Positions 15,807 through 37,700 of a stretch of 64,000 nt of DNA are shown here, in pieces; the stretch's first letter is position 1; every line of letters begins with the position of its first letter. This DNA comes from Zygnema cylindricum (Eukaryota > Streptophyta > Zygnematophyceae > Zygnematales > Zygnemataceae). The DNA lies in contig JBBHKE010001332.1 of the NCBI GenBank assembly GCA_037447655.1, positions 124,299 to 188,298 on the forward strand, read 5' to 3'. Below the pieces are notes generated by a model. It did no database searches and had not been told where the DNA came from. It saw only the letters and a program-made list of their open reading frames with translations. The position numbers and the translations under genes were made by a program.

Positions 15807-16813
15807 TGCAATTATGTGTCCTCCACTGCAACACAGAATACAAGAAGCCCCTAGATAATATTTAACTAACCCACTTTAAGACACAACTACTGTTGTCTTT
15901 GAAGGAAAACTGACAATTTGACTGCAACCCTGTGCAGCGTGGACTCCTTTGAGTTTATTGCAAAAAGAATCAATGAAAACAACCAACCAGCCGATTAGTT
16001 ATGAGCCGGCAAAAATGCAAATTTATACAAAGCTCTCTTAGAGAGAGAAGTGACTATCTCCCAAAATTTCCTAAGTCCTAAACCTCTCTCACAACCCCTA
16101 TCTACTAAAGTACAAACTAATCAGATAACTGTAAAGTACAGATAGGTACTACGGCCGATGTCCTTTTTGTACGGCTGGTGTGCGACAAGGCTACTGAGTA
16201 TACACGTGTCACTTTTCCACTCGTTTATATATTCTCCGGATTTCTCGCGACCGAATGTCATCCTTCCACGCGGCGCCACGTCATGCCACGTCCATAAAAT
16301 CCAAAGTGACCATTCCGCGATCTCGGCGACGACGTGCGCCGTCGGATTAAATGCGACATTAAATGTCGACCGTTCAAAGTGTCTGTTTCATTTGTTTCGT
16401 GCGAAATGACGTTTCGCACTAAACCTTAACAAGTTCTATGTTGGTTTCGTTTCATATTCCAGTTAGATCATTTCGGTACTATACAACAGTTTATATATGA
16501 ATGAAACCTTATATTATCTAACGGACTTCTACGACAGACTGGTTAGAGCTAACGGCTACGCCGCGCTCTACCGGTCGAGGGTTCGAGTCCTGCCGGACTC
16601 AACCTTTTGTTGAGAGTGACTTAAGTCACTCTTTAGTCCTTCCTATCGAGCTGAGGCAGCCATGGCTCAATCGCTCTCTCTCTCTCATTCAATGACTACA
16701 ACAAGTATGGGGGCAATAGAGAATAGATGGAGGCACGCTGCTTGCATTTTCTTTATCTGTTTCCGCTTATTATTTCAAACCTAGAAAATTCCAAAAAACT
16801 ACTTAATTCAACA
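15807..16813 (-). mobile_element. 5' LTR of E2 (type C)
   Basis: 1007 bp reading leftward from TGTTGAATTAAGTAG at 16813 to ATTGCA at 15807. It includes the tRNA-like module on the plus strand at 16530-16608 and a cluster of GTAC motifs around 16125-16180. It abuts the methyltransferase reading frame of X at 16814. Confidence 0.9.
16530..16608 (+). other. tRNA-like module in type-C LTR, antisense to the LTR
   Basis: ACTGGTTAGAGC (16538-16549) resembles a tRNA D-arm/A-box. GGTTCGAGTCC (16580-16590) is a perfect Pol III B-box. A TTTT terminator (16605-16608) follows within the small hairpin CTCAAC-CTTTT-GTTGAG. The acceptor and anticodon stems do not pair convincingly. Equivalent modules are at 44252-44332, 51537-51617 and 57004-57080. 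Confidence 0.55.
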
Positions 16814-16879
16814 GTTGCTTGCAGGGCCAACAGCTGTGGAGCTTGAAGGTATGTTCCGTGTGACTTTGGAGACTGAGGC

Positions 16880-18046
16880 TGGAGAATGCCAAAGAATGTT
16901 GCAGAACCCATGAAATTCCATTCAAATCCCTACTTTGTCCGATTAAACTACACCTTTTTGTGGCCGATACCCTTGGTGCTGTCGTGGTTGCTGGTTGAAA
17001 TCCCATTGCCTGTTCTCGTTCCTCAATACTTGTGGCGTTCAAGTAGCGGTTGTACTATCAAAGATCATTCTTGGTGAGCCTTTCCGGTAAGCATGGCTTT
17101 TAGGGAAGGATACCAAGGTCGGTAGGGCCTTTTGTGGATTCCCAGGTTTATTGCAACGGAAATAGGGGGTTCGGTTGGCTGTGGTCAGAGGAGTGGCCAT
17201 TCGCCCTAGTCCGAGAATCTGTTGAAGTGTAATGTTGGGATCTGGAACCTGCGTCTTCAACAGCTGTTGGAGGACGGGAAAGGGAGCGAAGTTGGTCCAT
17301 TAAGCCCGCAATCGGTGTGCTCTTGATCCGACCTGAGCTGCATCAAACAAAATGGGAGTCCTCAGAACCTTCGTCACTTGGTTCCAGCTGTTAACTACCT
17401 GTTTCCTTTTATCATTTGTGGGGTTGACATTTTCCAAGATGTACCCCACTAGCTTGTCTTGGCGTTCCTGTAACCTTGTTATCAGTCGAGTCATTTGAAA
17501 AAGTGTTCTGCTTCGGACATCTTGGTGTCGTTTGCCCTGTCCCGCTAATGAATACCCCTTACATGGCCATCTAGCAATCACTAGGTCTACCTTTCCAAGC
17601 TTCTCTAAATGTAAATCCGTGATGTTGTCGACATTCAAGGGAAGCGTACGGTGAGAGTTAGACATGGCGGACACCGGGAGTTGTTGTGGGTAAAGTTGGT
17701 GCAGCTGTTGCAGTCGGTACTCACTGACTGCACGGGAGTTCGGGTTTGTCTCGACTGTCGAGTACGTTTCTACTTGGTATCCAGCTATCATGACGGCTTC
17801 CAGGTCGGAACTAATGCCGGAAAATAGCAAGAGAATCCGGATTCTTGAGGGCAGGGTATCTAATGGCACCACTTGTCGGTTGAAGTCCTTCCCAGGATTA
17901 GGAACCGTTGGGAGTTCGGGCCGGATGAACCTTGCTGTCCCGGATGATATGGCGGCAAAGCTCTTGTCCACTCCCCGCCGAAGTGTGGCCATCTGTACCA
18001 ATCTGCTTTGATACTCCCTTTCCCACCGCTTGGAAATGGGGAATTG
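16880..18046 (-). pseudogene. Element X C5-cytosine DNA methyltransferase, inactivated
   Basis: Motif I reads LLFSG (Phe at 17824). Motif IV is WPCKGYS with the catalytic Cys at 17561-17563, where the family has PCQGFS or similar. Motif VI is ENV (Glu at 17434). A motif VIII-like AQVGSRAHRLR lies near 17310. After a TAA at 17300-17302, where the family has an aromatic residue, comes WTNFAP, then a region near 17110-17140 (ALPTLVSFP). After a frameshift near 17042 comes a motif IX/X-like stretch (EEREQAMGF near 17020, DLNGISWVL near 16925). Three stops and one frameshift inactivate it. The enzyme would methylate cytosine C5 in DNA. Confidence 0.83.
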
Positions 18047-18049
18047 CTA

Positions 18050-18793
18050 TATGGAATTCGCGATATCGGTGGAATCTTTGAACAGCTCTGAAGGGGTGGA
18101 TGCAGAGTACACCGGATAGCATCCAGCCACAGAAACAGTCCTTTTCTCGTGGTTCTATAAATCCAGTGGTACCACCACCTTGGTGCCCTTTGGATCTTCC
18201 GGGTCTGAATCTGTAACTTGTTCCTTCCATATGCTCAACTCCATGTTTAACCTTGTCCACGTGGCCATGCCCAACAGAATTTCAAATTGTTTACCTTCCA
18301 CCACAAGAAAGGCGAGCTGAATTTGCACGTGTTGGCTTGCGTCATCCGCGAAATCGATTTCCATTGCTTTAATGATGCCATATAGTGGTTGACTCCCACT
18401 GCTGACCGTACTCAGGCATATTTTACTGGGACTGATTTTTGGCCTGATTTCCTCGGGCATTTTGTGTAATGTTGAGGTGGTTATGAGGTTAGGGAGTGCT
18501 CCGGTATCCACCACTGCATCTTGATACCCGCTGTATCCATTAAGTTTAAAATTACCTGTCGTGTTAAGAATAAGAGCCACCGACAGGGCCTTATAATCTC
18601 TATCCGCCATAGAATTTTTTGGTTCTGCCGACATGAAGACTGTCTTGGGTGGTTCTGCCAACGCGACCCTTTCTCTCCTGGTGTGAATCTCTTCCCCTAG
18701 TGCCTGAATGAGGATTTCTTCGGGCAAATTGTGGGAGGAAGCTAGCGTTTTGACGTGGGTCAAGGCGTAGGGCATCAGATGTCGTACCAACAT
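18050..18793 (-). pseudogene. Element X retropepsin (aspartic protease)
   Basis: The active site Asp-Thr-Gly-Ala is encoded at 18497-18508. About 75 residues later comes the hydrophobic ILLGM segment typical of the second conserved retropepsin motif. A stop (TAG) at 18155-18157 follows. The same frame then continues through a second stop at 18047-18049 into the methyltransferase, so protease and methyltransferase belonged to one polyprotein. The frame extends upstream of the ATG at 18793, which is therefore not a proven start. Confidence 0.82.
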
Positions 18794-19519
18794 GATTGTC
18801 GGTTTGGAAGAAAGAGGGTGAGCTTTGGGCGATAAAATGGGTGAGTCTTTGTCTTCTGATTTCTCTTATCCCCCCCCCCCTTGTTTCTTCCTCTTATGCA
18901 TCAGAGTTCCCTGTTGAAGGTGTGATTGGTGGATCGGTTGTTGGTCTTTCAGCCAGGTATGGGTCAAACCATTCTTGATCAGTTTCCGTTGCTGAAGCAT
19001 TCTTTTTTGGCTGTGGTTTCTTCTAACCCTCAAAACCGGGAGGAAGTTTCTTTAGAGCCGAAGGAGGCGGATGGGTCGGTTTCAGGCCCAACGCAATGTC
19101 ACTATTCAGCAAGACAACTCGCATTGTGAAGGATAAAGGACCGGTGGCTTTGCGGATGTGGTCCTAAAGTTCCATCTGCTGGTTGTCCTTTCTCTATGAA
19201 GACGTGGTAGAGCGGAGTTGCCTGCGATTGTCCCTGACCTCGACGTTCCAAGCTCTGAAAAGAAATGTCCTAGCATAATGGGCCTTTGGCGGCACCATAT
19301 CCTATCCCATGAGGTCATCATCAGCTCCACCCACAGTGGTCTGCTGTTCCCGCTCCGCCAGCTTTCGTAGGAGTTCTTGTTTCTGTTTATGCAGTTTTTG
19401 AGCGTGCGTTAGAGGTGGAGGAGTATGGGCCCTTGATCCCAAGCGGAGAGCGGGCAATTCTGCTGCCATGGCGGACAATTGATTGTTTTTTTGCTAGATG
19501 ATGTGTTCCGGCGTCATGT

Positions 19520-20566
19520 TGTAGAAACTAATGGTTTTAAAGTATTTTCTAAGTTTGAATAGAAATAAAGAAGCCGAGACAGTCTACCTCTAACTTCTCT
19601 CTCCAACTCTCAAACTTGTCGCAGTCACTGAGAAATTGGAGAGGAAGCTAGAGCCATGGCTACCTAGGCTATCCGGCGGTTTACGGGAAATTTATACTAG
19701 TTAAGGGATTATTTACTAAAAGGTATATGCCGGTCACAGGATTTGATCCTGGTACATGCCGGCCGACAACCAGAAATAGCCGGTAGCCTTAGCCGTTAAG
19801 TCTAGCAGTAGTGTTACGTATTATATAGTACGATATTTACTTAAACATTAATACGTAGGTTAAATCATTTAACTATAACTGTTTATGGTATACATAGATC
19901 TGGTAATGTATAAGTACAGAATACTGTACATGCACGAAATCAATACCGCGCATTTATTTCGTAAGTGAAACGAATACCGCGCATGTATTTATTACGGTTA
20001 CGATTAAATTAGATTCTAATCAGACGGTCGGAATTAGCGTCGAGATCGCGAAAGAAGATTTCGGCGGTTTGTGGCCATCGCCACATCGGATGACGCGTGG
20101 CGAAATTACATTGGATCGTGGAATCTCCGGAGATTATGGCACCGAATCCAGATAGGACATGTGTCGACATTTGGGCCATGTCGTACAATGTTCGTACATA
20201 AAGTACACCGGCACCTGTACTTTTGCGTACGGAACTCTATTCTGATTGGTTCCGTACATCAGTAGATAGAGTCTGTAAGAGAGATAGGACTTAGAAAAAT
20301 TAGGAGATAGGACCCTCTCTCCCTGAGAGCTTCTGTACAAAAGGTCAACTTTGACCCTCCATAACTTACAGCTCAAGGGAGCAAATTCAGAGATTCTTTT
20401 TGCTATCGACTCAAGGGAGTCTTGCCTTCACAGGGGTGGAGGTGGTCAGAGTTTTTGTCTGCCAGTGTGGCAGTTATTTTTTCTGAAATCCAAAGGGGTC
20501 AGGATTATCCTAGAGGCTTCATGGAAGCTGTCCACTCTGAGGACTTATAGAGGTCTCAGAGTTTCA
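19520..20566 (+). mobile_element. 5' LTR of E4, intact type-A reference
   Basis: 1047 bp from TGTAGAAACTAATGG to GAGTTTCA, without the foldback of the E1 LTR. The antisense tRNA-like module is at 19718-19807 (B-box complement 19739-19749). GTAC motifs cluster at about 20187-20256. Confidence 0.9.
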
Positions 20567-20581
20567 GGTTATGGGCCCACC
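20567..20581 (+). other. Primer-binding site of E4
   Basis: A perfect GGTTATGGGCCCACC next to the LTR, with the gag ATG at 20571-20573 inside it. Confidence 0.85.
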
Positions 20582-20956
20582 CTCTAGGGTACCAATCTTT
20601 AATGGAACTGGATTCATATACTGGGAAAGTATGATGATACGAGCTCTATGCAAAAAAAGGTTTTGGGGGATAGTGAGTGGACGGCTGAGGCGTCCATCAA
20701 GTCTTGGAATTCCTCCAGGTTTTGGACGAAGCAGATTCACCAAGAAAAAAATCCACCTTCAACAGAGGAAACGAAAGAATGAGAAGTGGTGGACAAAGGA
20801 AAGGAGAAGGAGACGACCACACCAATAGCAACTGGTTCGACATTTATGTCACCTATTCCGAGGAACGAGGAGAATGATATTGAAACCTGAACTTCAACAA
20901 TATGGCGGCAAAGCACTTCATCCTACGCCATCTCACTCAAGGACTTGCATGTCTTC
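20571..20956 (+). pseudogene. E4 gag N-terminal fragment
   Basis: It starts MGPPSRVPIFNGTGFIYWE. A frameshift follows near 20745. The AAKHFILRHLTQ segment (about 20900-20945) matches the first bases of E1 in this window. Truncated at 20956. Confidence 0.85.
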
Positions 20957-21855
20957 AGAAAAAGAAACCTCTCCAAATTGCCCCGAAGACTAATATGATT
21001 CTCCCTCAACCCTCTGTTCCGCTGTACGGATCCGACCAGACTCTTCTAAGTTTCAAATAGTGAAAGTCCAAACCGCCCAATGAGGGGATAGTGCAACCAC
21101 CCACCTGAGCTACGATTTCCACAAAAGACAATCCAAAACAAAGATGTCAAAAGAGTTTACGACACAATGCAACAGTTCTCCAACAAAAAGATTGATTGTA
21201 TTTCTCTATGGGTTTTTTTCAGGAGACAGCATTGAAAAAGCAACCTGTCTCCTTCGACCCCAAGTGCCTTATAACAGCCAAGTTTTTCCTACGGCAAGTG
21301 CCAAAGTCAAAACTATACAGGAAGCCAATCAGCGGCCAGAAATTGTTATTATACGGCCATCAGACCAAACAGGTTGTACTACACTTAGGGCAATAAGTTA
21401 GGCGGCTAGCTCCAGCTGGATTTGAAGCCAAAGGTCCTCCTAAAATACACTCATGAGCCACAAAGTCCTGAATCGACGTGAAACGCCTAACTTTGACCCA
21501 AAGTAATAATTGCTCTGCCCGTCTGGTGGACCTGAACTAACATCCTACTAACAGCTAATAGCAAAATCTACAGGTCTATCCCAAAATTTACGTGGCGTTC
21601 CACAATGTACCCCCCACAAAGACAGGTGGAAACTGGTAGCATGTAACAGAATGGGAATCTTTGAAGCAAAATAACTCCGTCGTCCGACCTTCGTTAGGCG
21701 CAAAATAAAGTGTGTTCCGTTCAGTTTGGTAAGAAAAGGGATTTTTTCTGGAGGGGTGTACTCACTCCTCCGTGTTTTGAGGACCTTACCGGTAAAAAGG
21801 GGTTTGGAAATCCTTATTGAAATAAAGTGTGCCGGAAACGCACACGAGTCTGACA
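20957..21855 (-). mobile_element. Element X LTR, copy 1 (partial)
   Basis: About 900 bp matching 41066-41952 in the same orientation. On the minus strand it begins TGTCAGACTCGTG at 21855. It keeps the TATA box (complement of 21269-21273) and the segment at 21226-21251 that corresponds to the self-complementary piece in copy 2. Its LTR 3' end was lost at the junction with E4. Confidence 0.72.
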
Positions 21856-24759
21856 TTACTGACCCAACACAATTAAACGATAGCGTCAGTAAACAAGTTT
21901 TTGACATTTATTAAAACCGCCTAATGGTACAACGCTCTAATCCAATCACAAACGTTAAACATAACTTTCTCGTGCAGCATGTGTAGCTTATTATTTTAGT
22001 ATTTATTTAAAAGTAACAAATGTATGAGAATTTGAGTATTCTCCATCCGCGTGTCCGCTATGGTGCTGAATCGTCCTACGCACGTGACGTGTTTAATCGG
22101 TTAAATAATACACGTGGACATGCATGTAAAAAGTGTGCATGTAACTATGTACGCACGAGAATGTAAAATAAATCGGACGTGATCATAAATCTCTTATGAT
22201 TGCTATTTTTTTTGCGGTCATTATGCGCACATTATTTTTGCACGTATTTGTGTATATTCGGTCAACGACATTATTTTTATTGGTCGTGCAAGCTGGCACA
22301 AGTTAAAAATACCAAAAGTGTTTTAAATAAAAGTTTGAAGATGACGTTTATTGACGTGGCTGTGGGTCTAAAAATACAAGACGACAACATGTAGTACAGT
22401 CAAATTCGACGATGACGCAAAATGAACTTCTTCTTTTTTAAATTTCTTTGCACGGTTGTCACTTAAGCGGTACAGCGCTAAAGTTTGAAACAAAACGACA
22501 GAAAAAAAAAACATTAATTTGGCACATGGGGACATACACTTAAGCAAATCGCCAAAGATAGCCCAACAAAGGACCACCTTATGTTACAACTTGCTCGTCT
22601 AGCGTTGGAAGGACCGTGGTCCAATGGGAAGACTGAAAAGTTAAGACAACCTTGTCGGTTGGACGTACAAAATCAAGCAAAATACGAAATTCTTGCGCTA
22701 TAGAAAGTCAAAGCTCACTTTTTGGGCCACCCATTCAGTGGGCCCTTTGCAAGAATCAAGTCATCTTGGCCAATAAAACATTGCCGCGTGGCCATTACAA
22801 GTTAGAATAAAAACACGCTCTAAAAAAACCAAAATATTTGAGACTAAACATAACCGCGTGTTTGTAGCGTCACTAAGTTTATTAGGATAATCTCCTATAT
22901 CGGACGGATCAATTTCCTTTGCCTTAGGGAAACATTCCATTAGACAAAAAGTGGGGTTATTTATTAGACGCCTTACGTTTTCGTACAACGCCGTACCGAG
23001 CTTTACCAGATTTATTTTTTGTCAGACGAAACATCGTTATTGTAAAGCTGTCGGGAGGCTCCAATGATGTAGGCGTAATACCTCACTGTTGGATATTTCA
23101 CTTTTTGAGATCTGCGAAGCAATCGTGGGACGCAACTCTCCTAGCGAGGAGAGTTGTGTCCCACTGGAAAATTGCAATTGATACACGTGAAAAAAAAAAA
23201 AATCTACTTTGAACAAGCGATCACGGGCGTACACGTCGTACAGGCAATGTGTCGCATGCCACGCTACATAAGCCGAAAATATCCTCGCACGCTTCGTCTG
23301 ACATCCACTGACATTCAAAGTTTGCCGCGACCTTCAAAGTTTGCCACGACTATTTGCCGTTCCGTTTCGAAATGTTGATTTACCATTTTAAAATCAAAAT
23401 CTGGCCGCAAACTTGGCGTAGGAATCATTAACTACCTCCGATCGTACAAATGTTTCATTTTGACTTTATGTTTGTAGATTTTTTTAAGATTTTCAAAATC
23501 TTGACTCTAGCCCATGAGGCGCCAATCATAATTGAGTAAGGTTTGTTACCTGCCCGAAAAAATGGAGCGCGGAATTCTTGTAAACGGTATGAGTAGACTT
23601 GTCCATATACTTACTTTGACCCCCTAATGGAATGTTAACCTTATCCAACGGCTAAACATGTTCATCTTAATTTCACGGGCAGTTTTTGTACATCTTATAT
23701 TTTATCTGGACATGACACGCGTACAGTCATTTTCAGCGGGCAATTAGATGCGCAATGCAATAAAAGGTCCATAGGACATTCCGCGGTTCTAGCAATCATT
23801 GTGCTTTTCAACGTGTCATTTTACGGGTCAGCGTGTTTACATTGAGCGGAACCAGGCGTTAATAGCTAATGGAGCAGATCCCTTATATCAAAGGTCGTAA
23901 AAGTCAAAATTTTAGATTACTGAAACCAACCATTTTTTTTTTCAAAATCTGAGTACCCGTTGCCCGACCGGGTTATGTCACACTCCTAAACTGTTAACTG
24001 TTAACCGAGACACGTTTACGAAAATAAAAGTTAATTGAAACTAGATTTCAAGGGACTAACCGTACCCGCCCGTAACCGAATAAGTACAAAATTTGTGGTA
24101 CATCTCCCGTATACATTCCACAATAACATAAGTACAAATTACAATCATGTTGGATTGTATGGATAGTACAATATTTTCATTTTTTTTCGCTTTTTGCTTA
24201 CCCGACCGTAACCGATTTTTTTTTTTTTCTGTGAATCAAATTCCCGAATATGCCCGGCCCCCCAAATGAGGCAACCAAATCCGTTCCGGATCCTACGCGG
24301 GGGGTCGGTTAACGGTTTCTGTTGACCGTTTGCGACCTCTGCCCTATATCCAATGAACGAAAGCGCTACAGTACTCGACCGTTGGAAATGTACAAAAAAC
24401 TTTTTGAGGTTTACGTCATCAAAGGTTTTGAATAATGAGAATCGAATTCCATGGGTTTACTGAAGTTTTTATTTTATCGTATAATACAATTCACTTTATA
24501 TTATTTAAGATGTTGGTCGAATATCGTAACCGGTTTTGCCTGTATCAAATAGCGCCATTCTCTCCTAGATATACATCACCAGAATCAGGACCAGAACAAA
24601 GTAGGAAAAAAAAACGTAACGTTCAATGACGGTGGAAAATTTTCAAGAGACCCAAGCTTAAAGCAATATAGTGGCTTTTCTTAAGCGTTCACTTTTCATA
24701 AACTTTCGGCATAAGTGAGTACATAGGCATATAGCACAATTGCACCTAATTTGTTAGAA
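21856..24759. other. AT-rich stretch without a supported gene
   Basis: No reading frame here shows a recognisable motif. The segment 22310-22570 resembles half of the foldback element at 61850-62260. Homopolymer runs (A10-12, T11-13) and a 21-bp near-palindrome around 23140 are seen. The rest gives no signal that I can interpret. Confidence 0.5.
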
Positions 24760-24764
24760 AGTGC

Positions 24765-25487
24765 TCTAATGTAGAGATCCCTTTAACCATTTCACTAATT
24801 CATACAACAAGGTTAGAATATAACTCTTTATACAATGAACATTCGTCTTTATCGTCAACGTAAAATACACCCTACCAAACGTAAATTGATTCGCTTTTGT
24901 TTTAATCAATGGGTTAATATGCAACTTTTTCGAAGGTAATTCTTTCAAAACCTTTCAACCGTTTTTAGACTTCACTCTCAAGGTGTTAGTTTCCCAATTA
25001 AATTGAGGGCTACTTTGAGTTAACCAAGGCTTTCCCTGTATTAGCTCCTCACTACCCAAAATCATTTTTTCACACACCACTTTCATTTTATGACCTTGGA
25101 TATCAACTAATATTGGGTCAATTGTAAATCTAATGTAGACTTATTACCATTAGCCATATGAACATGCAAAGGTTTCTCCCTTATAACTGTAGGAATTTTA
25201 TTTTCCTCTTCAAACTTATGTGAAATAAAATTATGTGTAGCATCTAAATCTACCATAACTCTCAATGGTTTCCCTCCCACTAAAGACTCGAATCTAATCA
25301 AATTGTGTCTAGTGTTATCGTTACTTAAATGTCCTAACATAGGTCTGTGGTTAAGAGTTTCATCAAAAGGATTGTTCAGACTAGGGAGTGTAGTTAACAT
25401 CATAAAAAATTCAGCTATCTTCGTCTTTCTATTCATTAGCTTGCCCTCCATAGTTAACTCCTTAACCTCGAGATCTGGTCGACTCAA
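24765..25487 (-). pseudogene. Gypsy protease-like segment, active site mutated
   Basis: Residues around 25235-25250 read DLDATHNFI, where gypsy retropepsins normally have DSGATHNFI. The downstream frame continues with a stretch near 25040 (GSEELIQGKPWLTQ) that resembles the usual LLGMPWL region. The Ser-Gly of the catalytic triad is lost. Confidence 0.7.
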
Positions 25488-25559
25488 TTGAGGACTTTCA
25501 GCTAGTCCTTTCCGTTTCCCACCTCCAGGGCTTCATGCTTAGCTAGGCATAACGGAATA

Positions 25560-26925
25560 TCTTCCTTAAGACCTTTATTGACATCAACTTTTTTAAAATA
25601 CCAATTATATGTACATTCCTTAGCGTAATGATCTAGACCTCCGCATTTTAAACAAGTGACTTTTTTTTCGATTTTGTGCAATCTCTGCTGAAATGTTCCT
25701 CTTCTCCCCAGTTATAACAATTAGTTTTCTTCAATTATGCACACTCAAATCTCTTATGACCTCTTTTCTGACAGATAGTGCATGTGGGAATGCTAAGATT
25801 AGGCTTTTGAGCATTAATACTTGGTTTAGGACTGTTAATGTATCCAGCTTTATTTTGAAATTTATTTCGTGCATTAACTTTCTATCCACCCCTTTGATTT
25901 CCCTTGAAGATATTCTGCCTATTCACAAGACTCGCATTTAGACCCAATTCCACAAATTCTTGCTCACCCCACTTTGATACATCATTCGAATTACCCCTGA
26001 GTGATCGTGTTTCCCGATTATACCCCAACTTATCCTCTAATTCCTATGCCTTATTCTGTAATTCATTCAAATAATTGAATTTTTTATGTTTCAGTATACG
26101 ATTTCAAATAGTTCAAAAAATGAAACTTAGCCAATTCATCAGTCAAATCTATGACATTAATGCTAGATGAGTCAAATTCCACAATATAATCCTTGACAAA
26201 AATAGTTTGCTTATAGTTCAGCCAATTTTCTTCCGTTCTGGATTTATAAGTGACAGACAAGAAACGTTATTTGATCGCGGTTTTAAAAGCCTCCCAATCA
26301 TCATTATCATGAATTAAATTAGACCTTGTCAAAGTATAATACCAAATCTAAAAGATTTATAAGTGACAGGCAAGAAACGTGATTTGATCGCGGTTTTAAA
26401 AGCCTCCCAATCAACATTATCAGGAATTAAATTAGACCTTGTCAAATTATAATACCAAATCTGAGCATCACCTTTCAAACAACTAACAGAAAAATAAGTA
26501 TAATCATCACGATCACAATTTCTGGATTCTTAATAATACTCCATATGAAAATTCCAAGCATCCAACTCATCAATCTTCTTACCATCAAAAGATGGTGCCT
26601 CACTAATAGACAATTTAAGATCTCTTATCTTTTTAGGCCTATCATGATCATCCTCCCTAAAACTGGCATTTCTCTTCCTACTCTCACCCCTTTGGTCATT
26701 AATATCATTTCTTTTGTGAATTCAATTAATAAACTCATCCAATTTCTGTTTTGAAACATTCCCATTTTCATTATCATCCTTCAATTCATTGTTCAATTCA
26801 AAAATTGTTTCATCCACAGCAACAACATGATTATTAAGTCTTTTGACCAATTTCATAGTACGCTTCTTAAACACATTCAAAGCATTCTCCGTTTCACATT
26901 TCTCTGGACAATTTGCAATTATCAC
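25560..26925 (-). pseudogene. Gypsy gag with zinc knuckles, decayed
   Basis: A coiled N-terminal stretch (26722-26925) is followed by a capsid-like part (AWNFHMEYY near 26540, LKGDAQIWYYNL near 26460). Three knuckle-like segments come next. CTICQKRGHKRFEC at 25741-25782 is intact, the second has lost its second Cys, and the third (KCGGLDHYAKEC) lies near 25620-25655. Frames are broken by many stops and a 113-bp tandem duplication. Confidence 0.78.
26241..26466. repeat. 113-bp tandem duplication in the gypsy gag
   Basis: GATTTATAAGTGACAGRCAA starts at 26241 and again at 26354. The two units match with few differences. The length is not a multiple of three, so it shifts the gag frame. Confidence 0.85.
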
Positions 26926-27647
26926 ACAATGAAATCAAGTAATAAGAAAGGTAGAGTATAATTATCCAAAAGAGTTTGCACTAGATTTGAAGTCTTCATA
27001 TTTCTCCAATCCAAGACTTCCTTTCCTTTAACAAATCGTTTGAAAGATATCAAAATTTGAGAAATCAAATAAACATTAAAAGTAAGTTAGTAAAAATTCA
27101 ATTTTTCAAAACATTGAAATAGAAAGGTAAGAATTTCCCCACAAATTTTGCAACAACAAAATAGAAAGAAATCAAAAATAACAATTTAGGGTTTGAAAAG
27201 TTTTAAGTCATTTCTGGACTCCTTTAATCTTGAAGAAGTAAAGTGCTCCACTTTCCTTCTCCTCCATTAGAAAATTTCCCATTTCCCACTACATCAAGAT
27301 CTTTTAATCTCTAATTCTCACATCTTCACCCTTCATGGCTTCGAGCCCTCCCTCTACACATGAATCATTGCTATGAAAAGGCAAGTTTGTTTGGCCTCTA
27401 GGTAATTGGAGTGAGCTCCAGCGGTGGCTACAATGCCCACCTCGCATGAGTCTTTAGGACCTAAGCACGCCCCACATCTAACCAGCGGCCGCTGGCAGTG
27501 TGGTCACTTAGTTTCCCTCCAATCCCATACCATTTCACATTGTGGTTCTACCAACATAGGTCAGAGCACCCTCACCGATCACGGCAATCAATTTTCGGGT
27601 GAGAAAGCTTCTCCCTGTTTCTAACCAAATCTTTGATGCCATATGTA

Positions 27648-29330
27648 ATAGGATTTCCTACCTCTCAAAAAATCCCATTACTACAACCAATTTCCACCAT
27701 ACATTCCACACATTGGAAAATACACATCCACATTGGAAAACACTCACATAAGGATAAACTTTAAATTAGAAGAAGCTTTTGTCCACAAAACATTAGCTTG
27801 GTATGTTTGCCTCGTGGCTCAACCCTTCTTAGTAAATTATTTTCCACTACTCTCCACTCTTAAATATTTAATCTCTTAACTACTAAAATACTACTTAGTT
27901 TGTAAATGATTTTAGTGCAAAAATGCCATTGCTCCAATTTGGTATTATTCGCTCAAGACCAAGATCAGTCAGAATTTCCACAAACTTTTCCAAAGGAAAA
28001 GATGCCTACTCTTCTCTTCGACTTCACTATTTATCCACAATTTCCCTGGACTAGCCATGCCAAAGTCAACGCTCAGGTTTTACCTGGGCCAATCATTGAT
28101 CAGCTAGGACTCAAACTGAATAATCTAAAAATGTGTGAAATCTCTTACTAACTACGTAGGATTTACTAACCAATCAAACACTACATTTCAGTACGAAAGA
28201 ATTACGTGCAAAAGTGCGCGCCAATCGAAACGCGACTTCGCACGAACGTGCGTCGCAAATTTCACATGCGAAACTACCTACGAAATTTCATAAAGTGAAA
28301 GTGACGTTTCGTACTAAAAATTGTATGAAATAAACCATAGTGAGTACCAAACGAAGTATTGATTCATTTGGTACTTTTTAAACGTGCGCCTGAAATTACG
28401 CGGCTAGTTTGACCCTTAACCCGTTAGAATAAACACCCACTCGTTAATTTGACCTCGCGTTGTCGCCTAAATACACCAATCGCTATATCTTTTAAAATAC
28501 AACTCTTAATCGTGCGATTCTTTCGCGGACGTTTACCAAATTCATAACTCTATATTCGTAACACTTAAATACCCATTTACGAACAAGTTCGATCCACTAT
28601 TAATGTTATACTCTTCTGTTTTGGCCGTGCCACTCTTTTTGTACCCCGGACTCAGATGGTTTGCTTTTTAATTTATCCTGTATGGGTTTGTTTCGATAAT
28701 AAAATCTTTTTTGAAGTAATTTCTTTTAATAGAATACACTGAGATCTGACGCTGCCACAAAAGTTAAAAAACTGGGGTGAGGCGGACGGCAGGAAAAGTA
28801 GCCGTACATATCGTTGTACAAGTCAACAAGAGATCCGATTACGTTCATATAATGTACGGAAGTTACAATGCTAGAGAGCCTTCGGCGCCAATTAGAAGCG
28901 TCCTTCGGAATGAGAAAGAAAACATCTCATTTGAAATTTGTTTCGGTTTTTTTCAACAGTGCCTACGGGCCAAATGAATCGTTTGAAAATTGAAATCATC
29001 GAATCGCATGATTTCATTGGCTAAGAGAATAAGATAAAGTTTATTGAAAATTCAGTACGAGAGACCGAATCTGTACTACCGATTCATTGGTAGCCGGCTA
29101 TAGCATCTAGAGCGTCCAAAACTGATTTGTTTCGTAATCAACGGACGATAGAACAGAAAAGAATATCTTATTCATTTTCATGAAAAAAAGGCGGTAGATA
29201 AGCTAAAAATAAATAAATAGAAAATTAAACCGAGCACGCCCTTTAGGGTTCGTTTCCAAGTCTCCATCTAGTCAAAATAACATGAGACCAAAGTCAAAAA
29301 CGACGAATGAAAACTCTCTGGAATTCGAAC
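27648..29330. other. Presumed gypsy 5' LTR and flank, no gene
   Basis: The first few hundred bases to the right of 27644 should be the gypsy 5' LTR, but I could not place its outer end. The rest has no recognisable coding signal. The segment around 28190-28330 is rich in CGNACG-like words. Confidence 0.4.
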
Positions 29331-29969
29331 CATAGTTCAAAAGTAGGTGAAAGTAGGCCCATACAGTATGCCTATTGTATGCAAAACATACAATATGCCC
29401 TTAAGACCCATATTGTATTGGTCGAAAAATGAAAAAAAAGGTTAACAGGGTTGAGTTGCACACCGATCGATAGAGAATTAAACGGCATGTCTAAATTTTG
29501 AAAAAAAATCGGACAAAAAATATTTTTTCTGTGAATTTTGAGGTGTTTTTTATTTAAACCGTCAGATTCGGACCATCGGACGGTCGCTGATCAAAGTAGC
29601 GATCTTAAGAAGATCACATGAAAAGCCCATAACACAACTTATGATAGGACAGTCTGTCATATTCGCGTCTGCAATTTTGAAGGCCACACTAAATAAAGCA
29701 TCAAATTGACCAATAAGGTTGCCCGTCCGCGTTTTTTTTTTTTTTTCGGGTTTTCTTTCCCGGGGAATGTCATCCCACGTCGTGTCAGTCCGCTAAAAAA
29801 TTTCGTCAGGTGGCGTGCGCTGTACCATGATCATACGTCAGATTCGTACGATCGTACAAGAGTGCCCATAACGCACACCCATACAATATGCCTACTCTTA
29901 GCGAGTTTAGTGCCAAGTTTAGTGCGCCTACCAAAGGCCTACCATAAAAACGCCTACTTTTGAACTATG
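29331..29969. mobile_element. hAT-type non-autonomous DNA transposon (MITE)
   Basis: The terminal inverted repeat CATAGTTCAAAAGTAGGTG at 29331-29349 is matched (18/19) by the inverted end at 29951-29969. Flanking copies of ATTCGAAC (29323-29330 and 29970-29977) form a perfect 8-bp target duplication, as expected for the hAT superfamily. Inside there are subterminal repeats of CCCATACARTATGCCTA. No transposase is present in the 639 bp. Confidence 0.82.
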
Positions 29970-30039
29970 ATTCGAACCCTAGACTTCCATCTCCCGATCC
30001 CGTCCAATTTTCAAAATAAAAATTAATGAAGAATTAGTC

Positions 30040-30110
30040 GTGCGCTCCGAGAATTGAACCCGGATCCTCTCCTATCCACTCCTCCCCAATTGACCGGACA
30101 GACCTCTTGT
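30040..30110 (-). other. tRNA-like sequence outside a recognised LTR
   Basis: On the minus strand CCGGGTTCAATTCTCGG contains a close B-box match (about 30047-30063). GGTCAATTGGGGAG (about 30083-30098) resembles an A-box. No matching 5' acceptor arm is found. It could be a tRNA relic, a SINE piece or a remnant of an LTR module. Confidence 0.4.
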
Positions 30111-30280
30111 CAGAGAGACCGACCTAGTATAAGCCAATCATAGCCTATACAGCCCTCCTTTCCAACCTATCTGGGGGCAGGACAGCAAGTAGGACATCTG
30201 GCTCCCAACCAAAGATCTCAACGGTCACAGCTTGTGACGTTGGCAGAACAAGTACACCGCCATTTGCTATTAGAGTAAAT

Positions 30281-30290
30281 NNNNNNNNNN
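30281..30290. other. Assembly gap (10 N)
   Basis: Ten undetermined bases; the real size is unknown. Confidence 0.99.
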
Positions 30291-30542
30291 CCTGCAACTA
30301 GAGATCTACTTGGTCCGAGTTCATTATACACTTTGAGTTTCTGGAGGTATTCAGGAGTCTCACCTGTCGAAGGTTCTTCGGAGATCCTATTAGGACTGGG
30401 GAAACACAAAGTGGTTTTTTTTGTCGGTGGGACCGTTTTTTTTAAGACTGGTGGACGAATGGACACTTCCGTTCTGAGGGAACTCAGCTATCGTTTTTCT
30501 TAGAGACTTAAACGAGGGAACTCGTCATTCAATACGTCCCAG

Positions 30543-30897
30543 GCAGCTGTACTTTTGCGTACGAAATTGTATTTTGATTGGTTCCGTACATCAGTAGATA
30601 GAGTCTGTGAGAGAGATAGGACTTAGAAAAATTAGGAGATAGGACCCTCTCTCCCAGAGAGCTTCTGTAGAAAAGGTCAACTTTGACCCTGCATAACTTA
30701 CTGCTCAAGGGAGCAAATTCAGAGATTCTTTTTGCTATCGACTCAAGGGAGTCTTGCCTTCACAGGTAAGCAGGTGGTCAGAATTTTTTTTGCCAGGGTG
30801 GCTGTTTTTTTTGGTGAAACACAAAGGGGTCAGGATTATCCTAGAGGCTTCTTGGAAGCTGTCCACTCTGAGGACTTATGGAGGTCTTTGAGTTTCA
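30543..30897 (+). mobile_element. Type-A copia LTR fragment (3' part)
   Basis: It matches the last about 355 bp of the E4 LTR, from GCTGTACTTTTGCGTACG to GAGTTTCA. No primer site follows. Element X sequence starts at 30898, so this is the right end of a truncated copia insertion in X. Confidence 0.85.
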
Positions 30898-30957
30898 CAT
30901 ATTACTTGAGCCTGGTTCATCTAGAGATCAACGTCCCCAGGGATACAAAAGTTGCAA

Positions 30958-33688
30958 TGGCAGAGGATTAACGGTTGTTTTCCCATCGCCTATGAACAAA
31001 GCATATTGCATCATTTCTTTTGGTACCCCATTCTTCCGGAAACATTGCCCCTTTTTATGGCCCATGAACCCACAAGCCTCACATTTTGACCCCTCAGTGG
31101 TGTACTTCCCTCTCAGCTAATTAGAGATTTGTGCTTCATCAAATTTAGGAAGTCTGATTTGTCTCGATTGGGATTGAGACATTTTGGAGGTTTCGGAGCG
31201 AGGAGTAGGTTTATAAGTTTCCTTTGTGATCGGCATGCGGTCCCCTCCTCCTCCTCTTTGCCTGTGTTCCTGCTGCTTTCATGTTTTTCTGCTCGTTCTT
31301 TCTCAAACTCCTTTTGCTTGATAGCGAGTTCCGCGTTGAGCTTCCTGGGCATCGTTTCAACCCGTGACCAGTTTGGTTGCTTTACATGCAATTGTACTGG
31401 TAAGCTTTTTCATCCGCACCCATTGCATGTTCGGATCTAGTCTCAACTTCCTGCTTCCCCTTAAGCTTCTGGAAAGCATGAAGTTATGTTTGTTCCTCTT
31501 GGTTAAGAGATGATTCCCCTGTAAACCTGCGAAGTTGGCTCGCGCTTTGCCGGTAACAGCCTTTTCTCTAGCCTCAGTGTTTACAAAATGATCATATAAC
31601 TTCATCGCAGCCAATGAGATTTCTTGCACCGTGGGAATCTTGTCCTCGATTGCCTGACTGGAACTCTTATTGTCGAGGGTTGCCTGTCCTGTTGGTTCGA
31701 ACGAATTCCGAACAGTGACATAATATTTCGTGGCCATGGGTGGTGTGTCAATGGTAGACAGCTTGGTTTTCTGACAAATGCTCGAGAGGCGGTTGAACAG
31801 CGTTTGCGGTGTTTCATTCTTCAAACATCGGAATTCAGTGAATTCCTTGATTGCGGTTTCGTTCCTTTGTGTGTAAAGGAGCCTCCTGGCGTCCAGAAGA
31901 GCATTGGAAGGAGTTCAGTTGGCCACCATCCGGGTGGTTACCTCAGCTGCTTGTACGGCCTGCAGATGGTTAACATAAGCTCTCTCCCTTTGCCCTGCAG
32001 TTTCATATCCAAAGTGAAAGTAGTAGTAACAAGGGTTGTTGCAGCGGCAGCTAGGTCGGCGGCGGCGTAAATGACCTCGGCGTGAAGAGCCGGATCTGAG
32101 ATTTTGATGTTAGGTGCCATTACAGAGGGTTGACGCTCCTTATAGTCGGCCAATGCTCCTTCGGCTACATAGTTTACCATCATAGGGAAAAGAGTGGTCT
32201 CAAAATCCCCTGGGATGGCCCCTCCCCTGTATTTGTTAATTTCACACTGCGTGAAGGATTTCCAAAACAGTTCAAAATCAGAAAAAAACGATCCACGAGC
32301 TGTCTCCCGTAAAGATACTTATGTCCCCCATTTCTTTTTCCTCCTCGGCAAGGTGGGTGAACAGTGGAGAGGCTGGTCTGGTGGGACTGAAAAACTGGAC
32401 TGGTGAAATGGCTCCAGGTTCCGTCCCTTTACGGAACCACTTTTTCCTCAGGTGTATGTTGGGATTGCCCCCAGAAAAGATCTTGCGAAGAAGTGTGGAA
32501 TCTCGGCTCCTCAATGTCCAACGGTATTGTTTTAATATCTTAGGACCATCGCCACGAAGGGATGTGGAGGCGAGGCCTATTCAAAGATCTTTGTGGGATG
32601 GGTCGTGGTATGGACAGAGACGACTCGGGGTTTTGAGGAAAAGGTGCCTGCCTCGTGGAGAGCCTTCTGGAGGTTTCGAGAGGAGGAGTTCCGGAGTTGG
32701 AAAATGGGGATCGTCTGTGAGGAGGTGAGTAGGAGTGGATGTCGTATTTGTAGGGTAAACCAGGCGGTCTCAAAGACCCACAGACGGCGGCAGCGCGAGA
32801 AATGGAGGGCGAAGGAGAGGAGACGTGAGGTGGAGATTGCGGAGGAGTGGAGAGTCCGCGAGAAATGTGCACTCTCTGCTCAGGTTGTACCTGCACCACG
32901 GCCTCCACAGTCGAAGTTCTTGCCACCGAGACTAAGGTAGGATGTTGAGTGGCAACAGCTGCTAAGTTACCCAGTAGATCTACACCCATCCCCTCTTTTT
33001 TAGGCCATGTTTTCCCCCCTCCTTCCCGCTGAAGGGGAGGTTCTGGTCTAGGTCCCAGGAAGTCCTCGTAGCCTGTGTTGCAGGAGGAGTTGCTTGACCC
33101 GGGGTTTGTTCTCCCACAGAGGAAACTGTTCTACGAGAGGAATCGACCTGTCCACTAAGGATCCCCCGTGCTCTCCGTTTAGCCTCTCGGATGAGAAGCA
33201 ATTCCAATTCCACTGCCTTTTTCCGTTCCTCTTCAAGAGCCTCCCAGTCTACGGTGACGGGTCCCGCCCCGCCGTAGCCTGACTCTGTGACCGCAGGAAA
33301 TCAACTAACTTTTAGGTGCTGCTCACCACACCAGAGAGATCCGCAATCCCCAAGCCCAGTACTTCGGGGTTTGTAGGTCTCGAACGCCACAACCCCTCGG
33401 AAGGTCGGACAATCGGCACTGACGCAGACAAACAGCTAGGAGAGACTGAGGAGGAAGGGAAGAACTGCTCATTTTTTAGTCGAGGAGCGAATCTTCCCTT
33501 GTTGTCTCTATGATCAAACCAGTGCACTCTCTTTGGCTCTAGGCGCCCCCGCTTTTTAGTGACTTCCTCGGCCCGGGTCCGTGAGGTTGCTCTGCCCTCG
33601 GACAGTCAACTGGTTGCGGTGTCCTGATATTGGGTAGGATGCTGGTGCGAAGTTGACGGTACCCCCTGTTGTTCTCGGACAGAGGTTG
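30958..33688 (-). pseudogene. Element X gag, decayed
   Basis: Several frames carry parts of one gag: a proline/serine-rich section (33312-33683), a charged coiled-coil-like section (near 33200-33240), a Pro/Ser-rich region (32540-32989) and capsid-like pieces (31938-32514 and 31357-31824). The nucleocapsid knuckle CEACGFMGHKKGQC is at 31042-31083, and a stop follows about 40 codons later. Frame changes and stops are frequent. No similarity to the copia gag of the other elements was seen. Confidence 0.75.
33684..33688. repeat. Target-site duplication of E5, left copy
   Basis: GGTTG precedes the LTR at 33689. The identical GGTTG at 40070-40074 follows the 3' LTR. Five bases is the usual length for Ty1/copia. 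Confidence 0.9.
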
Positions 33689-34658
33689 TGTTGAAAAAAG
33701 AGGTATTTTGTAGTCTTTCTTGTGGACTTACTGCAGCCCTCATACTTGTCGTAGTCACTGAGGACCTGCAGACAGCCATGGCTGCCTGCTGCAGCTAAAG
33801 GAGATAGGCAGATCATTCAGTACAAATTTTTCTGCAAAATATAATTGCCCCTTATGAGAATTGAACCAGTGACCTCTGGATGATCACCGTACGAACCAGC
33901 CTTGCGCCTTATCCAGTATGTCTTGAGGAAATCGATACATGCATAGGCGCGATATTTATTTAAAGCCATACAGCGCCGAACATTTCATTTAACTAATTAC
34001 GGGACGATTTATGCATGGAAACATACCGGTCCGCACGAAATCAGGACCGCACGAAATATACGAATTAACATTTAATTTCGACGGACGAAATCAAACGTCC
34101 AGATCTGATCGAACGGCTCACAATGGAGTCGGAATGCCGATATAGCCGTTTGGCGGTTTGCGGACCAGATGTCGGTGGATGACACGTGGCAACATATGGC
34201 TGGATAGCGGATATCACGTGAGGAGCAACTACGGCACCGAAACTAACACGCGTCAACGGAACGGCCATGCCGTACAATGGCCGTATAAGAAATACAGCGG
34301 TACCTGTACCTTCTTGTACTTTACAGTCTTATGATTGGTAGAAGTACCTTAGTAGTAGGCTTAGAGAGGTAGCTTGGGACTTAGAATATTTTTTGGTTTT
34401 CCAGCCTCTCTCCCAGAGTGCAATTGTATTTATGACCAACTTTGGTCAGCCATAACTTAATGCTCAAGGGAGAAATTTCAGTGATTCTTTTTGCAGCAGA
34501 CTCAAGGGAGTCAAGGCTACACAAGAGTGTAGTCGGTCAAAGTTTTTTGCGTCCCAGGGTGGGACTTATTCATTGTCAAAGTCAGAAGTGCATATACTAT
34601 GCTAGAGGCTTCACATAAGCTGGACATTCTGTGTACCAATGGAGGTCACATAATTACA
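33689..34658 (+). mobile_element. 5' LTR of E5 (type B)
   Basis: 970 bp from TGTTGAAAAAAGAGG to ATTACA, with the antisense tRNA-like module at 33853-33922 (complement reads GGTTCAATTCTC). GTAC motifs run through about 34270-34350. GATTATGGGCCCACC at 34659-34673 is the primer site with one mismatch. Confidence 0.9.
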
Positions 34659-34662
34659 GATT

Positions 34663-35776
34663 ATGGGCCCACCCTCTAGGGTGCCCATTTTCAATGGAAT
34701 AGGGTTCATATATTGGGAAACTATGATGAGGGGTGCATTGTTTTAAAAAAGGCTTTGGGGCATTGTGAGTGGTCGTGTGCGTCGACCATCCGCAAAATTG
34801 GGAGTTCCACCAGGGTTTGGAGGATCTCGGTTCACAGGAGGATTTGCGGAGGTAGAGGTGGTAGAGGATGTTGGAGAATGCATCGTGTCGGGCATAGGGA
34901 AGGAGAAGGGGAAGGAAAAACTCACATCGATGCCTACTGGATCAGTTCAGATAGCAGATGTTCAGAAAACCGAGGCTAATGATAGTGAAATCTGGGATTT
35001 CAACAATACCGTGGCGACTCATTTAATTCTCGGGCATCTCACCCAGGCAGTGACTACACCTCATCTTCATGTTGACAAGGCAAACGAGTTGTGGGAGGCT
35101 CTTGTCAACATTTACAAGAGTGGTACGATTCAGTAGCAGAAGCTGGCAGATCAGAAGGTACAAGCATATGTATACAAAGGGGGAAAGATGTTAGATTTTT
35201 GTAATGACTTGGCTGGGTTATTTATGGAGTTAGAGAGTGCAGAAAAAAGGGATACCGAGAAAGAGAAGGTGAATACTTTGTTGATAAAACTCCCAGATGA
35301 TTATGAAAACATTGTTAACAGGGTTCAGGACTTGCTAGATCATCGATGGATGTGGAACTTTGTTGTGGGAATGATATTGGCTCGGGAAAGCACAATTGAG
35401 ATTCGGAGAGGAGCAAAGAGTGTTCAGGCATTGGGTGCTGGTACTATTTGGGGGGATAAGGATTCCAAGAAACCTTATGGGAACTTTGGTGGAGGAGGAA
35501 GAGGAAACCATGACGGATCTGGACCAAGGGCTCCGAAGGGGCTTTGCCATTTTTGTAAGAAGCCGGGACACTACATGGCGGAGTGCACTAAGTTGAGGGA
35601 TTTGAGATTGAAGGAGGAATCGATTAGAAAACCGACCAAAAGGAAAAAGAAGGCGTTCGTTGCGACACAAGTCGTGGGAGAGGATACAGATGATGACGAT
35701 AGATAGCTTCTCCTCTACGAGGAGTTGGAGGTGAAAGGTGAGTCGAAGATTCCAAAGAGGCAAAAATGTGCTTTCG
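34663..35776 (+). pseudogene. E5 gag, 3' truncated
   Basis: It starts MGPPSRVPIFNG at the ATG in the primer site. Stops lie at about 34744, at 35134-35136 (CAG to TAG) and at 35704-35706. The knuckle CHFCKKPGHYMAEC is at 35545-35586. The homology ends near 35776, after the RRQKCAF-like segment, where antisense integrase of E6 begins. Confidence 0.88.
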
Positions 35777-36183
35777 TTTAGAGGTATATTCCCCCCCATT
35801 GTCACTCCTTATCCTCTTAATAGGGGTTTCATGCAACTTCTCACTCCAAGCTTTATATTCTTTGAAATAAGTTTATGCTTCAAACTTATTTTTCAGAAAG
35901 TAGACTCTAGAGTATCAAGACCAATCATCAGTTATTGTCATCATAAACCTCTTTCCTCCAACCGAAGGTGCTTTTACAGGTCCCCAAATATCTATGTGGA
36001 CCAAATCTAACACTTTCTCACCTCTATATGTGGCGGCTTTGGGAAAGGGAGGTCTTTGAGCCTTACCTTGAGCACAACCACTAGAATCACCCATCAATTC
36101 ATTATCCCCAAACTGAATGCCTTCTACTACCCCAAGCTCTTTATTTCCTTCAACCTATAAAAATGCACATGTCCCAACCCCTT
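35777..36183 (-). pseudogene. E6 GAG_pre-integrase and integrase fragment
   Basis: The Cys part of the pre-integrase domain (SGCAQGKAQR near 36085), the first integrase Asp (HIDIWGP near 36010) and the second (RSDNGGEYTS near 35800) are visible, with a frame break near 35900. It stops at the junction with E5. Confidence 0.85.
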
Positions 36184-37700
36184 ATGTCAAATCATCAACT
36201 TAGGAACATCAACATAGTAAGCATTCTTCTTCTCATTACTCAGGTTAAGCCTAAACATTTCTTGGCTACCCTTACCTGCTGTGAAGTAAACTTCATCCCC
36301 ATACTTAGTTGTAAAGACTCCCTTTCTAGTGAAAGTATCAAACTCTTTTTCATCTAACACAGACGTAGAGACAAGATTTTTACTCAGCTGAGGAATGTAA
36401 AGTACATCTGAGAATGTAAGTATAGAAGTCTTACCCTCCACTAAGACTTTCAGATCTACTGATCCCATTAGATATGTAGTAACCACTATCCCATCCCCGT
36501 ACTCTATCTCTACAGTAAGAATCTTTCTTAACTTAGTGAAGAGTTCTTTATCACGACACATATGCATGGATGCACCTGAGTCGATGATCCATTCTTCCTG
36601 TGGAGCTTCCCAGATTGCTCCAAGGGCACACTTTTGCCTCCGAGGAATATCGTTCTCCTCCAGCCTCTCATTAGGAATAAGTTCCCCATCCTCCTTAGAG
36701 GACTCATCCTTGGTTTCTCCTGCACTTTTGTAACCACAAGTGCCTTTTTCTTCACTTCGGAAGAACCCCCTCCACGGTTCTCTTGGAGCCTCAGCTGTGA
36801 TAGCTTCACACAATCTGCAATAAAGTGTCTCGGCTTTTTGCAATAATGACAAAGACCCTTTGAGGGCCTTTGTCCCCCAAAATGATCTTTTTCCCCTCTA
36901 TAAGGTTTCTTCGGGTCCTTCCCCCATCGGACCCCTCCTGCTGCTATAGCTTGAATGCTCTTTCCTCCTCTCCTAATCTCCATTGTGTTTTCCTGCACAA
37001 GTATCATCCTGACTACTGTGTTCCATTTCCATGAACTATCAGGCATTCCCTGTACTCGGTACACTATGTTTTCGAACTCATCTGGTAATTTCATGATAAG
37101 GGTGTTAACTTTCATTTTCATTGTACCTGTCCACCCGGCACTTTCCATTTCCATATACAAACAAGAAAGATCATTACAGTAATCTAACATCTTTCCTCCT
37201 TTGTCAGTGTAACTCACTAGCTTTTGCTCAGCCAACTACAGCTCCTGAATAGTTCCCGCTCTATAAATCTCCACCAAATTCATCCACAACTCCTCGGCCT
37301 TGTATATGTGAAGATGAGGAGTGGCCAAACCTTGAGTGAGGTGCCTCAGAATGAAGTTTTTGGCAGCCATGTTTACATCCTCCCACATTTGAGTATCGTT
37401 CTCCACGGTCTTCATGGTCGCCGCTCCCAATACTGTGGCAATAGGAGTGAGGGGTGTCTCCTTCCCTTTCCCCTTTTCGGACATACAGCTGTCTCCATCA
37501 TCTGCCTCCTTTGCTGAGGCAACTGTTGTTGCAGGAAACCTTACTGCCCCTAATCCTGGTGGAGTTCCCGAAGGTGGACGTTTCACTTGTCCACTGACGA
37601 TGCCCCAGTATCGTTTTTCACACAAAGCTCCCATCATCATGGCTTCCCAATAGATGAACCTAGATCCATTGAAGGTGGGCACCCTAGAGGGTAGGCACAT
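36184..37700 (-). pseudogene. E6 gag and protease
   Basis: The gag ATG is at 37700 within the degenerate primer site. A TAG lies near 37236. The knuckle CHYCKKPRHFIADC is at 36810-36851, and the protease Asp-Ser-Gly-Ala lies near 36580 in a neighbouring frame. One frameshift falls between the knuckle and the protease. Confidence 0.87.

Follow-up and report, generated by a model that had tools for sequence, protein, structure and literature searches.

KnitGypsy-Dnmt3 of Klebsormidium nitens is a gypsy element with a Dnmt3-type C5-cytosine DNA methyltransferase (DNMT), described by de Mendoza et al. (2018, PMC5890265), in which the repeats are arranged as A-coding-B-A-B (Fig. 4 legend) and the DNMT is under purifying selection with Ka/Ks under 0.2; when its DNMT was put into yeast, no methylation was detected, a result that the authors call inconclusive. 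For translation past a stop codon, the type I readthrough consensus is UAG-CAR-YYA (PMC3542737). Here, a stretch of 64,000 nucleotides of the Zygnema cylindricum genome (the window; contig C1001, 124299-188298, in a eukaryotic assembly of 352.8 Mb and 2689 contigs) was analyzed and found to hold, at 16813-19520 on the minus strand, a decayed and broken copy of a Ty3/gypsy long terminal repeat (LTR)-type retrotransposon with a DNMT. Judged by its sequence, the family of this copy fits the KnitGypsy-Dnmt3 type. The locus as a whole is likely best explained as a decayed, split gypsy copy of an element with a Dnmt3-type DNMT between protease (PR) and reverse transcriptase (RT), for which we infer readthrough of a stop codon, packaging, methylation and guidance by a PHD finger.

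A protease and a DNA methyltransferase in one frame

On the minus strand of 16813-19520, a retropepsin open reading frame (ORF; 18155-18865) is followed by a DNA_methylase ORF (17300-18046) in one common frame. The features of this piece are the following:

16813..19520, minus strand: DNMT retrotransposon piece with the end of the gag region, protease and methyltransferase; blastn 77-83% to genome copies L011, L012 and L021
18266..18547, minus strand: retropepsin domain with DTG motif; Asp_protease_2 E 0.002, below cut-off, ORF 85-89% in L011, L012 and L021
18155..18157, minus strand: stop 1, nonsense change; Trp codon in L012, a stop in L037 too
18047..18049, minus strand: stop 2, candidate leaky UAG followed by CAAUUC, between protease and DNMT-Pol; TAG in 25 of 26 distinct copies
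16880..17845, minus strand: Dnmt3-type C5-cytosine methyltransferase domain, predicted, broken; PF00145 29.4 bits, 77-81% amino acid identity to L011, L012 and L021
17300..17302, minus strand: stop 3, nonsense change inside motif VIII; Tyr codon in L012
17037..17041, minus strand: frameshift region, where the frame switches between flanking alignments to L011

In the profile search, the DNMT ORF matched Pfam DNA_methylase (PF00145) above the cut-off (29.4 bits against 22; E 6.8e-7). The protease ORF matched Asp_protease_2 below it (19.3 against 24.3 bits; E 0.002), but this ORF shares 85-89% of its amino acids with three other, open copies in the genome (L011, L012 and L021), to which the DNMT ORF is 77-81% identical.

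A preliminary description of this DNA, made from the letters alone, had proposed a plant retroelement polyprotein from 16814 to 19519 in which a protease is directly followed by a C5-methyltransferase, interrupted by three stops and one late frameshift. The two ends are those of the element piece; the direct succession in one frame is borne out by the Pfam matches and the alignment to L011, L012 and L021, and the retroelement nature by gypsy relatives with the same parts and by the alignment of both ORFs to open genome copies. Methyltransferase motifs I, IV, VI, VIII and X can be aligned to those of relatives, alignments to L011 put the frameshift near 17037-17041, and the LHCII genes of the genome agree with a plant host. 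All three stops are present, but they are of two kinds: those at 18155-18157 and 17300-17302 are decay, because L012 has Trp and Tyr codons at these places, whereas the TAG at 18047-18049 is common to nearly all distinct copies. None of the element functions proposed below is possible for the window copy itself.

Layout, size and selection of the family

Among the 14 genome places first examined, open frames of 2395, 1757, 1643, 1525 and 1520 amino acids were found. L009 holds, in one frame, Pfam matches to a zinc knuckle, an Asp protease, DNA_methylase, RVT_1, RNaseH, H2C2, rve and PHD; the layout of this open relative is gag-PR-DNMT-RT-RNaseH-integrase-PHD. RT lies 3' of the DNMT in seven of the nine copies scanned with Pfam (L009, L011, L012, L013, L016, L018 and L020), the scan of L015 and L022 having taken in the DNMT-bearing ORF only. 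DNMT and RT are joined in an open frame in six of the nine, and in L009 and L013 PR shares a frame with both. The "unusual layout" without RT that the preliminary description had seen was thus not upheld: it is a property of the fragment and not of the element, because insertions split the window copy, and by DNA similarity its RT-to-PHD part is found just beyond the left end of the window. That an unrelated methyltransferase gene or pseudogene came to lie beside a retrotransposon fragment by chance, which the broken window copy without RT inside the window might suggest, is refuted by the open genome copies joining PR, DNMT and RT; the same domain order also occurs in other species, and we give this explanation virtually no chance.

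The gypsy order RVT_1, RNaseH, H2C2 and rve is found in the pieces of L009 and in L011, L012 and L018. None of the zinc knuckle and protease matches reaches the curated cut-off, and the PHD match is over the cut-off in L009 and L018 and under it in L011 and L012. No tyrosine recombinase is among the Pfam matches of L009, L011, L012 and L018, which have an rve plus H2C2 integrase instead, ruling out a DIRS retrotransposon.

The family is large, partly recent and carries signs of purifying selection. A PF00145 profile search of the genome scored at least 123 places (of 782 candidates), and the window DNMT as query at least 150, the window included (of 1484 candidates), all with E 2.5e-79 or better; these counts may be inflated because some places are perhaps duplicated contigs. 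Three pairs of DNMT places have equal scores (C839/C2519, C2179/C2675 and C1974/C1920), perhaps being duplicated or haplotype contigs. In one copy, the two A repeats have 931 identical bases and this copy was therefore inserted recently. The A-coding-B-A-B arrangement is complete in two copies (C1344 and C449), with a GACA-GC-TGTC junction joining the B and A repeats; three more copies (L015, L016 and L017) have the B-GC-A junction, and L018 and L019 have B without a following A. With traces of repeats in L023, the window copy is compatible with the same arrangement. An inverted A-B unit lies upstream of a DNMT copy in G000:C544 (116589-117990 and 121207-122394), its A part being 99.3% identical over 1188 bases. 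The ratio of nonsynonymous to synonymous substitution rates (dN/dS) of the DNMT is 0.13-0.28 in 12 informative pairs, and in seven it stays below 0.2. Among the eight remaining pairs without the window copy, five are saturated and three have fewer than five synonymous changes.

A conserved UAG as a candidate leaky stop

Stop 2 was compared in 27 rows representing 26 distinct copies (L008 and L038 are the same place). A TAG lies in frame, exactly between protease and DNMT, in 25 of them, the exception being L037 with AAG, and the six bases after the stop are CAATTC in 25 as well, L021 having TAATTC. The copies come from two subsets: eight rows, or seven distinct copies since L006 and L012 are the same place, which all have TAG, and 20 stretches with 56-81% DNMT identity, of which 19 have TAG. 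UAG is not replaced by UAA or UGA in any of the 27 rows, and a stop is found at the same position in L003 and L020, which are 51-60% identical to L012. In the window's subfamily the context agrees with CARYYA at five of six bases, with both sides of the stop in one frame.

A related arrangement is found in L057 (1-6197 of CADCWO010000201.1), where PR-DNMT, TAG-CAA-TCA (six of six consensus bases) and RT-RNaseH-integrase follow one another in the same frame; unlike in the window's subfamily, the DNMT is 5' of the stop. L057 is filed under a Synechococcales (cyanobacterial) metagenome-assembled genome, but by its content it is probably eukaryotic contamination and an independent relative. Furthermore, nine database proteins have more than 400 amino acids before the DNMT, no RT match and an end no more than 200 amino acids after the DNMT, three of them from Marchantia (P0003, P0011 and P0015, the latter two labelled partial), and 38 database proteins are led by RT without a detected DNMT. 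DNMT-ending and RT-led proteins are the pattern expected from a stop after the DNMT, though some of these ends are gene-model or contig ends.

Together, the sequences suggest that the conserved UAG may be a leaky stop that meters methyltransferase output. As a candidate site of this kind, the conserved UAG before DNMT-Pol in the window's subfamily is new here. Alternatively, the UAG might not be leaky: splicing or internal initiation could yield DNMT-Pol, or copies with the UAG might be a non-autonomous subfamily that borrows Pol from the stop-free subfamily of the same genome; the existence of that subfamily would fit such an account, as would the finding of no stable RNA structure 3' of the UAG in the four copies folded (z -0.41 to -1.39). 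However, dN/dS of the downstream DNMT and RT is well under 1 in stop-carrying copies, the UAG is never swapped for another stop, its position is kept in the more divergent L003 and L020, and the exact CARYYA motif occurs in an element of another organism, L057. A non-leaky UAG is considered unlikely, if still a serious contender.

Type and catalytic residues of the methyltransferase

L012 and its aligned copies have the motifs in the order I, IV, VI, VIII, X, without the rearrangement that places VI-X before I-V, ruling out a DRM methyltransferase. In the PDB, the L012 homologue is matched best by DNMT3A with 56.7 bits, DRM2 being far lower with 20.5 bits, and the nearest folds to its structure model are DNMT3B and DNMT3A. 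Motifs and modelled fold thus predict an un-rearranged Dnmt3-type C5-methyltransferase. Of the 98 rows in the DNMT alignment, 97 retain the catalytic Cys and all have the motif VI Glu; the residue before the catalytic Cys in motif IV is Glu in 53 rows, Pro in 38 and Ser in seven, with Glu exceeding Pro in both of the layouts described below. Such conservation of the predicted catalytic Cys, preceded more often by Glu than by Pro, is new here.

Self-methylation of element cDNA is possible on these grounds. The DNMT might also be kept for another use, acting on element RNA, restraining host silencing or serving as a structural DNA-binding part of the integration complex. The negative yeast result with the K. 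nitens DNMT (PMC5890265) and the replacement of the motif IV Pro by Glu or Ser would be in line with this, but the nearly invariant catalytic Cys and motif VI Glu, as well as a modelled fold nearest DNMT3A/B, argue against it, and we hold another use to be improbable.

Relatives and number of captures

Named carriers of related elements are Marchantia polymorpha (P0003, P0011, P0015, P0142 and P0151), Closterium (P0022, P0039, P0112 and P0119), Klebsormidium nitens (P0034) and Haematococcus lacustris (P0077). Two layouts occur among 157 proteins, with the DNMT before RT or after RNaseH; P0034 has the DNMT-RT order of the Zygnema genome copies, and in Haematococcus the DNMT is after RNaseH and before the integrase.

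With a minimum RT length of 360 residues, 140 rows were obtained, from 131 of the 157 proteins and from nine copies of our own; they were picked by similarity to one query and include only a small DNMT-free sample. A careful tree was made from 71 of them, taking every third second-layout row plus Haematococcus, and truncated rows only if named. All 48 DNMT-bearing rows form one clade (100/100), which also holds six truncated rows and three without detected DNMT, and 14 DNMT-free rows are outside. Within it, the 18 sampled rows with the DNMT after RNaseH form one 100/99 clade nested inside the first layout, together with two rows without detected DNMT and one truncated row. In a fast tree of all 140 rows, the second layout is again nested in the first, the separation of the whole DNMT-bearing group from the nearest outgroup being weak (0.63).

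This topology favors one old capture of the DNMT followed by one relocation. In the RT tree, the Marchantia, Closterium and Haematococcus relatives group in one clade with Klebsormidium, a placement that is new here. Separate Dnmt3 captures in each plant lineage would instead agree with the 2018 description of an acquisition in the K. nitens lineage (PMC5890265), with the difference in layouts, the DNMT lying either ahead of RT or between RNaseH and integrase, and with a midpoint-rooted DNMT tree in which the layouts are separated and not nested. Against the single DNMT-bearing RT clade, with the whole second layout in one clade inside it, separate captures seem to us a poor prospect.

Proposed mechanism

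We infer the steps of readthrough, packaging with RT and methylation of cDNA or target from the sequences. The main product would be gag-protease, and occasional ribosomes would read through the conserved UAG to give gag-PR-DNMT-RT-RNaseH-integrase-PHD. The methyltransferase would thereby be packaged with RT at a low dose and might methylate double-stranded cDNA or the DNA at the insertion site, making new copies resemble the methylated host genome, and the PHD finger at the C terminus may direct the integration complex to chromatin. In L009, this PHD finger most resembles those of PHF12, Lid (KDM5), BAZ2B, WSTF and PHF21A. Several of these PHDs bind unmethylated H3K4, like the ADD domain of DNMT3A; by analogy, targeting of the L009 PHD to silent chromatin is a guess that we offer.

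Several points weigh against this reading. The nine-base UAG block is only fourth of 145 in conservation, or seventh without near-duplicates, its surroundings being conserved too; its context in the window's subfamily matches CARYYA at five of the six bases only; and the second subfamily of the genome (L009 and others) is without this stop, and therefore the feature is not universal. More than half of the rows have Glu in place of the motif IV Pro, which leaves their methyltransferase activity uncertain, and no methylation by the K. nitens DNMT was detected in yeast, a result called inconclusive (PMC5890265). The published figure of 0.2 (PMC5890265) is surpassed by dN/dS in five of the 12 informative pairs; copies recur between pairs, and stops are present in three of the copies used (L002, L014 and L022). 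The RT tree is not cleanly rooted, as no branch separates the outgroup from all other rows, and the moss-like host-lineage signal comes from two LHCII genes.

For green plants in general, we tentatively propose, as an idea with somewhat less than an even chance, one old gypsy lineage that captured Dnmt3 once, before the chlorophyte/streptophyte split or with later transfers, and still proliferates in land plants. Its DNMT would be metered by readthrough and would have moved across the leaky stop, traveling with gag or with pol, so that dose and packaging were tuned in evolution.

The split window copy and its surroundings

By its similarity to relatives, the window copy spans about 49 kb, with its gag part at 30914-41691. 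Its remaining parts in the window and the insertions that split it are the following:

30914..33684, minus strand: gag region, belonging to the 5' side of the window copy; 79-80% and 73-74% nucleotide identity to L011, L012 and L021
40074..40475, minus strand: further 5' part of the same copy; 80% nucleotide identity to L012 510-109
40781..41691, minus strand: repeat A at the 5' end of the window copy; aligned to the C544 repeat A with 80.5% identity in 932 columns
33685..40073, no strand assigned: insertion into the copy, with ORFs similar to those of copia elements and about 5.4 kb between its terminal repeats; repeat families D2, D3, D6 and D7
19521..30913, no strand assigned: nested insertions splitting the copy, including a repeat-A piece of another DNMT element

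In L011, L012 and L021, the sequence of 30914-33684 adjoins that of 19520 at one end and that of 40074 at the other. Left of the window, on the 3' side of the copy, L023 7641-4461 matches the RT-to-PHD part of L011 (83% over 3.2 kb), an assignment made by DNA similarity alone, and L023 also has traces of B, A and B repeats.

The repeat-A piece of another DNMT element (81%) is at 20965-21598, inside the insertion. The sequence of 19519-20957 is shared with L022 6925-8367 (89.5%) and abuts or lies near a DNMT element both times, as would result from a shared insertion preference or a composite element. In two copia-like elements, at 9063-15300 and 33688-40070, the distance between the terminal repeats is about 5.36 and 5.41 kb; Pfam gave an RVT_2 match in the first, and the second is copia-like by ORF similarity. 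Several further copia-like fragments are scattered over the window, and 59085-59619 holds overlapping A-rich tandem repeats with periods of 8 to 171 and a strong AT skew.

Host genes

At least 88 LHC-family matches were found among 150 scored candidates in the genome. Setting aside the top row 9vfj_2, a chain matching in two stretches, one LHCII gene has as best chains 8htu_U and 7xqp_a (460 bits; next 434 and 432), from complexes that we take to be those of mosses. A second LHCII gene is closest to 5xnl_3, 7oui_2 and 8z9d_33 (413-418 bits; next single-stretch chain 378), presumably Lhcb3, which is not known outside land plants. By these two genes, the host would be placed among the land plants, near mosses. 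In G000:C519, C2590 and C1116, genes of the LHC family are densely arrayed in both orientations.

Comparison with known systems

In the literature that we searched, DNMT-bearing gypsy elements are not reported from bryophytes or Closterium, Haematococcus being outside the search, and neither is stop-codon readthrough in such elements. A printed statement that such elements are absent from land plants is contradicted, for a non-vascular land plant, by Marchantia P0142 and P0151, in which DNMT and RT are in one chain; the present genome would contradict it as well if its host were such a plant. With the DNMT before or after a candidate leaky stop and Pro or Glu in motif IV, the family offers natural replicates for the role of a methyltransferase in a retrotransposon.

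The elements share with KnitGypsy-Dnmt3 the LTR gypsy domains, an un-rearranged Dnmt3-type DNMT inside Pol, the A-coding-B-A-B repeats and purifying selection; they differ in a host that is land-plant-like by its LHCII genes, in the at least 150 scored matches in the present genome, in the conserved UAG before DNMT-Pol in one subfamily and in the C-terminal PHD finger of some copies, the word PHD occurring 0 times in the main text of PMC5890265. SymbioDIRS-Dnmt3 of Symbiodinium (PMC5890265) likewise has a Dnmt3-type DNMT in a retroelement Pol, more than one domain order and DIRS-type split repeats, but a tyrosine recombinase in place of the DDE integrase (PF00665 and PF17921) found here. Compared with plant host DNMT3 and DRM (PMC6453930), the element DNMTs have a similar, Dnmt3-type catalytic domain but keep an un-rearranged motif order, unlike DRM, and belong to the polyprotein of a retroelement. 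Type I readthrough as in the tobamovirus replicase (PMC3542737) is resembled by the in-frame UAG-CAA-UUC here and UAG-CAA-UCA in L057, and by the lack of 3' structure in the four copies folded, whereas the candidate site here belongs to an LTR retroelement of a plant host, in which it stands before or after a methyltransferase.
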